Below, in pieces: positions 33,114 to 35,303 of a stretch of DNA of 35,303 nucleotides. The position numbers and the translations under genes are program-made. Each line of letters starts with the position of its first letter. Within the stretch, counting starts at the first letter, position 1. The DNA is taken from positions 1 to 35,303 of the forward strand of contig CAOJBM010000010.1 in the NCBI GenBank assembly GCA_948329525.1, in the 5' to 3' direction. The notes beneath the pieces are model-generated. The model did no database searches, was not told the DNA's origin, and worked only from the letters and a program-made list of their open reading frames with translations. Origin of the DNA: an uncultured Mycoplasmatota bacterium (GTDB lineage: Bacteria; Bacillota_I; Bacilli_A; RF39; UBA660).

Positions 33114-33146
33114 AAAATAGCACAAATATATATGTTGCTATTTTTT
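33114..33146 (+). terminator. Terminator at the end of the ribosomal operon, probably bidirectional
   Basis: AAAATAGCA (33114-33122) pairs with TGCTATTTT (33136-33144) over 13 bases and is followed by more T. Leftward the complement also ends in TTTT, so it could stop the XRE gene too. The right arm overlaps the last codons of that gene. Confidence 0.65.
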
Positions 33147-33362
33147 ATATTCAATAATGTCTTCTATGTTACAATTTAAAGCTTTACAAAGCCGGCAAAT
33201 GATATCTAAATCAACTTTAACAATATCACCTTTTATATACCTTTGAATTGTGTCAAAACGAACACCACTTATAACGCTTAAGTGATTTTTGCTCATCTTT
33301 TCTTTTTCTAAAATACCTTTTAATTTAAATTTTATTTTTCCATAATTTACACTATTATACAT
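33138..33362 (-). CDS. XRE/Cro-CI-type transcriptional regulator
   Basis: A 74-residue single-domain HTH protein of the YozG/HTH_26 type. The five-helix core reads LKGILEKEKMSKNHLSVISGVRFDTIQRYIKGDIVKVDLDIICRLCKALNC in segments: helix-turn-helix at MSKNHLSVISGVRFDTIQRY, then the closing LDIICRLCKALN helix and an IEDIIEY tail. There is no ligand or protease domain. AGG lies nine bases before the ATG at 33362; TTG/ATG codons at 33371 and 33368 are alternatives. It is divergent from the exported-protein genes. The twin palindromes between them, one within its own promoter, suggest that it binds them and regulates both itself and the operon. Confidence 0.85.
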   Translation of the reverse strand: MYNSVNYGKIKFKLKGILEKEKMSKNHLSVISGVRFDTIQRYIKGDIVKVDLDIICRLCKALNCNIEDIIEYKK

Positions 33363-33402
33363 ATGCATCAACCTAAATAAATTTTAACAACAAATATACG
33401 TC

Positions 33403-33431
33403 TTGACATTATACGTTAAAACGTATAATAT
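33403..33431 (+). promoter_or_regulatory. Promoter of the exported-protein operon, operator-embedded
   Basis: TTGACA (33403-33408) with TAATAT (33426-33431) at 17 bases, or TATAAT (33424-33429) at 15. Palindrome O1 (33409-33428) occupies the spacer. A bound repressor would directly block polymerase. Confidence 0.65.
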
Positions 33432-33436
33432 ATAAA
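33408..33436 (-). promoter_or_regulatory. Leftward promoter for the XRE gene
   Basis: On the complementary strand TTTATA (33436-33431), 17 bases, TATAAT (33413-33408). It overlaps O1, so the two divergent promoters share the operator. Confidence 0.45.
33409..33428. repeat. Palindromic operator O1
   Basis: TTATACGTT (33409-33417) and AACGTATAA (33420-33428) are perfect inverted arms around AA. A related half-site, ATATACGTC, lies at 33394-33402. Confidence 0.75.
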
Positions 33437-33439
33437 TAG

Positions 33440-33459
33440 TTATACGTCTAGACGTATAA
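33440..33459. repeat. Palindromic operator O2
   Basis: TTATACGTC (33440-33448) and GACGTATAA (33451-33459) are perfect arms around TA, a fully symmetric 20-mer. Its centre is 31 bp (about three helical turns) from that of O1, placing the two on the same face of the DNA. Confidence 0.75.
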
Positions 33460-33487
33460 TAAAATTAGCAAGAAAGAGGTAAGAGAA

Positions 33488-34048
33488 GTGAAAGTAGAAG
33501 TAAAAGAAAAGAAGAATAAGAAAATAGTCATAGGACTTTTAATAATGATTACATTATCTATTATGGTCGTAATAGGAGTAAGTTATGCCTATTGGCAAGT
33601 AACAAAAACACAAGAAACAAATAACGTAGTAGCAACAGGATGTTTTAATGTCACCTTAACAGAAAAGAACCCCATAAATTTAGCAAGTGCTTATCCTATA
33701 AGTAGTACTAAAGGAATGCAAACAACACCATATGAATTTACTATAAAAAATACTTGTCAATATAATACTGCATATACTGTAAATTTAGAGTCACTAGCAA
33801 ATACAACATTTGCAAACACTAGTATTAGAGTAGCACTAAATACTACTCATAAGCTATATAATCAATATGATGTAGCAACGAAGTATTATAGTACAAGTAA
33901 AGAGTCAAGAAAGTTAGTATCAGGAACATTACAAGCAAATGGCACAGTAACCTATAGTTTAAGATTATGGGTAGATGAAGCAGTAACAACAAGTGAAACA
34001 AATAAAAAGTTTGAAAGTAAGATAATAGTAACAGCAACAACAAGTTAG
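33488..34048 (+). CDS. TasA/camelysin-like exported protein with SipW-type signal
   Basis: A 186-residue protein. A basic N-terminus (to Lys12) and hydrophobic helix (13-31) end in SYAYW, the hallmark of signals cleaved by SipW-type signal peptidase. The mature part begins QVTKTQETNNVVATG-CFNVTL and contains YEFTIKNTC, paralleling TasA/CalY proteins, where an N.F.AG.L.V strand is followed by FTIKNTG. C52 and C90 fall in these strands and could pair. TasA-type proteins form extracellular fibres or surface layers; fibre formation here is inferred. Start GTG 33488 follows GAGG about 10 bases upstream. The next gene begins 12 bases after the stop. Confidence 0.75.
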   Translation: MKVEVKEKKNKKIVIGLLIMITLSIMVVIGVSYAYWQVTKTQETNNVVATGCFNVTLTEKNPINLASAYPISSTKGMQTTPYEFTIKNTCQYNTAYTVNLESLANTTFANTSIRVALNTTHKLYNQYDVATKYYSTSKESRKLVSGTLQANGTVTYSLRLWVDEAVTTSETNKKFESKIIVTATTS

Positions 34049-34059
34049 GAGTAATGAGT

Positions 34060-34311
34060 ATGAAAAGATTTAAGAAAGATAATAAAAAGAAAAAAGTAAT
34101 AATAAGTTTCTTAGTAATAGCATTAGTAGGATTAGTCCTAATCCAAAGTTCCTATGCTTACTTTCAAAGACAAACAGAAGTAAGGTTTATCAATGCCAAA
34201 GTAAGATTTCCAAAAGCTAGTGAAGTAACATATACAACTACAAGTAATGCAAGTGTTAAAAATGTCGAACAAGCATTAAATGATTTGTATGAAAAATTAG
34301 GAGGTTTATAA
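34060..34311 (+). CDS. Small exported/membrane-anchored protein with SYAYF signal
   Basis: An 83-residue protein. It has a very basic N-terminus, a hydrophobic helix at about 13-30, then SSYAYF (30-35), again resembling a SipW-type signal. The short exported part has two strands and a helix KNVEQALNDLYEKL (67-80), preceded by SEVTY (54-58). This part is shared with the N-terminus of the next protein. ATG 34060 has AGGAG (34047-34051) at 8 bases; the ATG at 34054 is only 2 bases away. Its stop overlaps the next start by one base (TAATG), so the two are coupled. It may be a minor subunit, anchor or chaperone for the partner. Confidence 0.7.
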   Translation: MKRFKKDNKKKKVIISFLVIALVGLVLIQSSYAYFQRQTEVRFINAKVRFPKASEVTYTTTSNASVKNVEQALNDLYEKLGGL

Positions 34312-35180
34312 TGCAGAAGTTTAAAAAAAGAATACTTATACTATTAGCATTTATGATTGTTCTAAGTACAACTGTGACAGCAGCAACAGTGTTTAATTCC
34401 AAAGACATAGCTTATAGTAATAGTGCTACTACAAAGAAAAATGTTAAAGACTCGTTAGATGAACTTTATACAAAGGCATCTAAGATAGGACAATGTCCTG
34501 AAGGCCAATATTGTTATTCTATTCCTGAAACAATATCAATGACTACAGTGGGTGATTATATAAGAATGACACCAACAAGTACAAGTTATACAATTCCAGC
34601 AAGTGTAACAGGATATACTAAAGATGTAGTAATTCATCCTAATAGATTAAACTTATGGAGAGTTATTAAAAAAAATAGTGATGGATCAGTAGATGCTGTT
34701 AGCGTATATGTTGATGGAGTAATGATTTATATCTCTAGTTTAGAAGGATGTAGAAATTTTATTGGTACTTTACAAACAATAGCATCCCAGTATAAAAATA
34801 CAAAATATACAACTGCCACAAGATCTATGGGTTATGAAGGACAAAGTTCTTACTGTAGTTCTGCTGCTGGTTGTGTTTATAATGATAAATCTACTCTTAA
34901 AGATGAGATTTTAGTAGAGAATCTCTTTGGAGATATTGTTACTACAACACCTGGTGGAAGTTCAATCCTGTATTCTTGGAAAACTTATAGAAAAACTGAT
35001 TCAAGTACTTGTGAGCTCATAAAATTTAGAGATCGTGGTTCGTATGCTATGTATACTTATAGGAGCGGTGGTAGTGTATCTACTGGATCAACAATAAGGC
35101 CTGTTGTAACAATTAAAGGAGACGTTAATGTGATTAGTGGCGGTGGCAAAACTGCATCAACACCATATATTTTGGAATAA
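34311..35180 (+). CDS. Exported Cys-containing surface protein
   Basis: A 289-residue protein with a signal peptide (basic start, hydrophobic 8-22, cleavage plausibly after TAA near residue 25). Residues 30-56 share the SxDIxY...KNVxxxLxxLYxK pattern with the small upstream protein. The remainder is rich in Ser, Thr, Tyr and Gly with six Cys (including C62 and C68), suggesting disulfides. The C-terminus reads TIRPVVTIKGDV, then GGGKTASTPYIL; I associate this ending with exported proteins of uncultured Bacilli, from memory rather than a search. No sortase motif or membrane anchor is seen at the C-terminus. It could be an adhesin or fibre component. GGAGG at 34299-34303 drives translation. Confidence 0.7.
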   Translation: MQKFKKRILILLAFMIVLSTTVTAATVFNSKDIAYSNSATTKKNVKDSLDELYTKASKIGQCPEGQYCYSIPETISMTTVGDYIRMTPTSTSYTIPASVTGYTKDVVIHPNRLNLWRVIKKNSDGSVDAVSVYVDGVMIYISSLEGCRNFIGTLQTIASQYKNTKYTTATRSMGYEGQSSYCSSAAGCVYNDKSTLKDEILVENLFGDIVTTTPGGSSILYSWKTYRKTDSSTCELIKFRDRGSYAMYTYRSGGSVSTGSTIRPVVTIKGDVNVISGGGKTASTPYILE

Positions 35181-35303
35181 TATTTTGATTAGTTAATTTA
35201 ATTATTCCCCATATTGAAGAATATTTGAAACTTTTAGTAAAAATATTGTATTAAAGTTGTTCGGAAACTAAAAATATGTTAACATATAAAAGTCAAACAT
35301 GAA
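35181..35303. other. Intergenic end of the window
   Basis: No gene is supported. A 14-bp perfect palindrome ATATGTTAACATAT lies at 35274-35287. An ATG at 35299 is cut by the window edge and has no clear ribosome binding site. No convincing terminator for the preceding operon is visible. Confidence 0.4.

Follow-up and report, generated by a model that had tools for sequence, protein, structure and literature searches.

Multiple fimbrial operons of the PapB type encode several surface structures that are each regulated locally; their regulators are related to one another and their switches rely on methylation or inversion. In Bacillus, the XRE-type regulator SinR controls tapA-sipW-tasA (PMC9674648, PMC13082335). 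In Enterococcus faecalis, CylR2 is encoded divergently from the operon that it represses, and a signal acting via a membrane partner releases it (PMC5454873). For uncultured gut Bacilli such as the one considered here, surface biology is largely obscure. We analyzed a stretch of 35,303 nucleotides (the window), which is contig C10 of a 1.79-Mb metagenome-assembled genome in 121 contigs (G000, referred to as the own genome), and found a locus that resembles each of these systems in part. As in the fimbrial operons, several surface structures appear to be under local regulation, but here the regulators belong to different families and seem to reassort with near-identical payloads. As with SinR, an XRE-type regulator, presumably a repressor, is associated with TasA-type surface proteins. 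However, SinR is one global regulator with an antirepressor, SinI, whereas here many unrelated regulators lie adjacent to and divergent from surface genes. The likeness to CylR2 consists of an HTH-only XRE protein of ~66 to 77 aa, divergent from an operon for exported products, with a palindromic putative operator in between. CylR2 acts at a single locus and together with CylR1, a membrane protein, whereas here the arrangement occurs many times over, with regulators that differ; moreover, the window locus has no CylR1-like neighbor, the gene behind the XRE gene being rplQ.

The first-pass annotation of the window had described a leftward XRE gene, two 20-bp palindromes, and three tightly spaced rightward genes for exported proteins, and we found all of these in place (Table 1). 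The XRE gene is convergent with rplQ and divergent from the payload genes, which we call g1, g2, and g3. The g1/g2 junction measures 5 bp, and g2 and g3 overlap. Each of the three products has an N-terminal hydrophobic segment, and the signals of g1 and g2 end in SYAYW and SYAYF, respectively.

Table 1. Features of the cassette locus in the window
Feature	Position	Strand	Details
XRE regulator gene, 77 aa, HTH_26	33138..33371	-	ORF and Pfam match, E 5.5e-13
Predicted payload promoter, TTGACA-17-TAATAT	33403..33431	+	Consensus match only
Predicted regulator promoter, TTTATA-17-TATAAT, overlapping the payload promoter	33408..33436	-	Consensus match only
Putative operator 1, TTATACGTTAAAACGTATAA	33409..33428		8-bp arms, 4-bp center
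Putative operator 2, TTATACGTCTAGACGTATAA	33440..33459		Perfect 20-bp palindrome
Ribosome-binding region, AAGAAAGAGGTAAGAGAA	33470..33487	+	
g1, 186 aa, predicted exported TasA-like head domain	33488..34048	+	
g2, 85 aa, predicted exported stalk/adaptor	34054..34311	+	
g3, 289 aa, predicted exported variable tip module	34311..35180	+	
Repeated element of ~165 bp with 23-bp inverted ends (ATTCCCCATATTGAAGAATATTT), start only	35204..35303		Cut by the contig end

The g1 protein combines a signal/TM helix ending in SYA-YW with a predicted beta-sandwich and two conserved cysteines, Cys52 and Cys90. Its AF2 model (pLDDT 84) consists of a helix plus a beta-sandwich, for which fold matches in the PDB were weak (TMq 0.18 to 0.37 among the matches listed, with the bundling pilin 7ueg at rank 12). 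When aligned with the genome's own camelysin/TasA-family protein, g1 matched over its full length (hhalign probability 92%, E 5.5e-7, 170 columns). In contrast, g1 does not match the Pfam profile of camelysin (CalY), PF12389 (Peptidase_M73), which was matched weakly by 2 of 50 g1 relatives and reached above the cutoff in the own genome only by C16:4139-4693. Thus, the proposal of a TasA-like first protein was borne out by the alignment with the family member from the own genome but not by the Pfam profile. Together with the SxA signal end followed by aromatics and the beta-sandwich model, the alignment supports g1 as a probable distant TasA-like protein. It differs from TasA and camelysin in lying below the Pfam model, in lacking a linked SipW in its neighborhood, and in having a conserved cysteine pair, variable C-terminal tips, and many paralogues. 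The g2 protein is characterized by its SYAYF signal end, an EVRFINAKV motif, and a NVEQALNDLYEKL segment, and g3 by the motif series VGDYI..TPTSTSYTI...LWRVI...RPVVTIK...PYIL. The AF2 model of g3 was poor (pLDDT 39, from an alignment of only five sequences), and g3 had no recognized relative in named families. None of g1 to g3 fell into a named family of Pfam, NCBIfam, or PHROGs, and PDB sequence searches with the g1 and g3 profiles gave no match.

The window locus is one of ~26 paralogous cassettes in the own genome, which contains ~20 clear relatives of g3 and ~18 of g1, plus copies cut by contig ends. The modules are separate genes in the window and in C15, whereas C18 and C2a carry g2-g3 fusions and C12, C32, C45, C58, and C72 carry g1-g3 fusions. 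The g2 and g3 genes of the window are therefore the split form of proteins fused elsewhere, g2 corresponding to the N-terminal part of the longer g2-g3 fusions. Some relatives have fibronectin-like modules between the cassette modules, and the copies in C4 and C6 are broken. Across the 60 genomes searched, matches were confined to the window's own family and occurred in 19 genomes, with up to 37 copies per genome. Named records with relatives are bins of uncultured Bacilli, Erysipelotrichaceae, and Tenericutes, several of them labeled animal gut or rumen. Accordingly, the single dedicated module of an XRE gene plus three genes that had initially been proposed is not a lone cassette, but the divergent arrangement of regulator and surface gene does recur. 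We rejected the occurrence of the same XRE gene plus three genes everywhere, because the regulators differ in family and sequence. Two g2-g3 fusions (L061, 6527-8164; L064, 5653-7095) carry the fibronectin-like modules between stalk and tip, and their sequences suggest that such inserts may vary stalk length. The repeated element at the end of the window has 17 end-copies in the genome, against 0 for a control pattern, and is also found at L198-L214; in 8 of 10 places it lies 3' of a cassette. It could be a small nonautonomous mobile element or a recombination or terminator structure.

Immediately upstream of ~12 of the 26 cassette heads in the own genome lies a small, divergently oriented DNA-binding gene, namely, at C10 (window), C15, C18, C2a, C2b, C80, C13, C6, C58, C39, C78 (partial), and C7. 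In the remaining cassettes, about half of the total, the upstream gene is codirectional and unrelated, or there is none. The regulators are mostly XRE proteins, and those tested by Pfam matched HTH_3, HTH_19, or HTH_26. The C7 regulator is ribbon-helix-helix-like, an assignment made by inspection, as for that of L133, and neither had a Pfam match; the L097 regulator matched HicB/RHH weakly. Pairwise identity among the eleven XRE domains compared from the own genome has a median of 22.5% and a maximum of 49%, and the window XRE has no close relative in the own genome. At L067 (4410-5261), two different XRE genes stand in a row, both divergent from cassette C18, and possibly form a two-step regulator.

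Similar payloads were found behind dissimilar regulators. Over 33470-34370 (900 bp), the window shows 100% identity to C15, which could be a mis-join given the fragmented metagenome assemblies, and the two have different XRE genes and putative operators upstream. Homology breaks abruptly in the ribosome-binding region, and the tips diverge again downstream. The mismatch is repeated without identical DNA in C18 and C2a, which show 75 to 92% identity when compared in 100-bp steps along that part of the window, and in a second species, in which the first 735 bp of L146 and L152, counted from the start codon, show 96% identity against 18% for their XREs. The converse was also observed: the XREs of C2b and L146 are 68% identical and their payloads 37%, and C7 and L133 carry different payloads behind regulators that share 74% identity. 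In the sister species G001, the slot after rplQ also holds an XRE gene convergent with rplQ, but a different one. There, a strong promoter (TTGACA-17-TATAAT) is accompanied by a putative operator, the direct repeat ATCGTAA(A/T)ATATTAAG, whose two copies occupy the spacer and a position just downstream, and the g2-type payload that follows has a reading frame broken where the contig ends. C2b and L095, however, are orthologous in both regulator and payload (regulators 99% identical), and regulator identity correlated weakly with payload identity (Mantel r 0.22, p 0.016). The weak correlation indicates that reassortment is incomplete, and together with the C2b/L095 orthology it indicates exchange superimposed on inheritance.

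We consider it likely that these cassettes form a modular surface-protein repertoire in which many members are locked by private repressors and in which regulators, heads, and tips reassort. In each unit, a variable tip (g3) would be carried by a constant exported head of TasA-like type (g1), a stalk (g2), or both. In approximately half of the units, a private divergent small DNA-binding repressor, usually XRE and sometimes ribbon-helix-helix, would lock expression, and in the best-resolved units it would bind repeated operators in the -35/-10 spacer and over the payload transcription start. Given that the units differ in their regulators and operators, each surface protein could be turned on or off while the rest stay as they are. 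Over time, regulators, heads, and tips would be reassorted by recombination, which would take place at the start codon and where head and tip join. The earlier reading of the locus as encoding regulated exported surface proteins is supported, and we infer both the repression and the surface display. More tentatively, and with less than even confidence, we propose that this is a new type of surface variation, based on interchangeable repressor-operator modules, constant heads, and variable tips, the members of which are shown independently without invertible promoters. The novel element is the multiplication with unrelated regulators and the exchange of parts; our search of the open-access literature found no described system with such an arrangement. 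If the proposal is true, near-identical surface proteins behind unrelated repressors would represent a distinct route to bacterial surface diversification. The cassettes would also amount to a naturally occurring set of small repressor-operator pairs that differ in specificity, and they would allow a test of the idea that regulators and structural genes evolve as exchangeable parts.

The intergenic region of the window locus illustrates how such a lock might work. Operator 1 sits in the 17-bp -35/-10 spacers of both divergent predicted promoters and operator 2 directly downstream of the rightward predicted -10, as judged from a consensus scan that yielded no more matches in the intergenic region than in shuffles. 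The palindrome centers are 31 bp apart, and the two palindromes are the sole exact matches to the TTATACGTNNNNACGTATAA motif in the whole genome; the better one was matched by 1 of 200 shuffles of the intergenic region. With operator 1 in both core promoters, binding would cause autoregulation as well as payload repression, and operator 2, on the payload side only and three helical turns from operator 1, may permit cooperative binding. Repeats of this twin-operator geometry, lying in the core promoter and close to the transcription start, were found at the window, C6, the G001 rplQ locus, L105, L110, L126, and L148 and in the C2b/L095/L146 group. C15, C80, C39, and L152 also contain repeats, of which one copy lies at or close to the core promoter, and C7 and L133 have a GCATTGC-type palindrome in common. 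There was no clear twin site at C18, C2a, C13, C58, L107, and L155. A blind operator-pair test gave p<0.05 for 7 of 24 regulated promoters versus 3 of 40 controls (rank test p 0.086). This is a trend only, and the twin-operator design is therefore well supported for a subset only.

Two alternatives are narrower forms of the modular repertoire proposed above, and our confidence in them is therefore not additive with our confidence in the latter. In the first, each XRE answers its own cue (a small ligand, a peptide, or a membrane partner), each surface protein thus being induced in its own host niche. This is possible but rather unlikely: of the solved proteins, the one closest to the window XRE is CylR2, which is signal-released via a membrane partner (PMC5454873), but the E value is modest (0.0068), there is no partner gene beside the regulator, and the small XREs are HTH-only, without a visible sensor domain. 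In the second, private autorepressors are noisy or bistable switches, and single cells display random members, which would amount to phase or antigenic variation without inversion. Regulators and operators that differ per unit, the position of operator 1 within both of the divergent promoters predicted, the combination of constant heads with variable tips, and decayed copies would all suit such switches. However, negative autoregulation alone gives stable and not bistable output, and no antagonist was seen. We also looked for an invertible promoter or slipped-strand tract and found at the locus neither inverted repeats flanking the promoter or an invertible segment nor a long slipped-strand tract. 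We judge random display to be unlikely.

It is very improbable that stray phage-type repressors landed upstream of the cassettes by chance and exert no control over the surface genes. The window XRE does match phage repressor families, and the own genome has ~50 HTH_3 matches. However, across the window and the loci examined, a divergent XRE gene lies within 400 bp of 17 of 111 g1 genes versus 5 of 674 other genes (Fisher odds ratio 24, p 1.7e-11), and two of those five are g2/g3 cassettes of the same family. In the own genome, at least 10 regulators were observed versus ~0.3 expected, a rough figure based on an approximate gene count. Furthermore, the divergent geometry is constant, the regulator-head gaps are mostly 45 to 175 bp, and the putative operators are embedded in the predicted payload promoters. 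Payload and flanks are not phage: a PHROG search gave no match for g1 to g3 and none of the viral contigs searched encodes g1, on which grounds a prophage origin of the locus was rejected.

An ordinary single regulated TasA/SipW fiber locus under SinR control as in Bacillus, to which the distant TasA-like head and the XRE-type regulator (SinR is also XRE-type) might point, is already disfavored and hardly credible, given the canonical M73-sipW loci elsewhere in the genome (C16 and C17) and the many paralogues, a good number of which sit beside an unrelated local regulator. The absence of a signal peptidase, claimed in the first-pass annotation, holds for the neighborhood but not for the genome, in which the sipW search revealed that contigs 16 and 17 together encode three SipW-type peptidases. 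On C16 (L245, 4049-7847), a canonical camelysin/TasA-family gene, a gene for a DTDGDGKPD-type calcium-loop-like repeat protein with long repeats, and a SipW-type peptidase gene form one run. A second surface locus, on C17 (L246, 2365-9236), encodes two SipW-type peptidases together with several exported proteins of large size.
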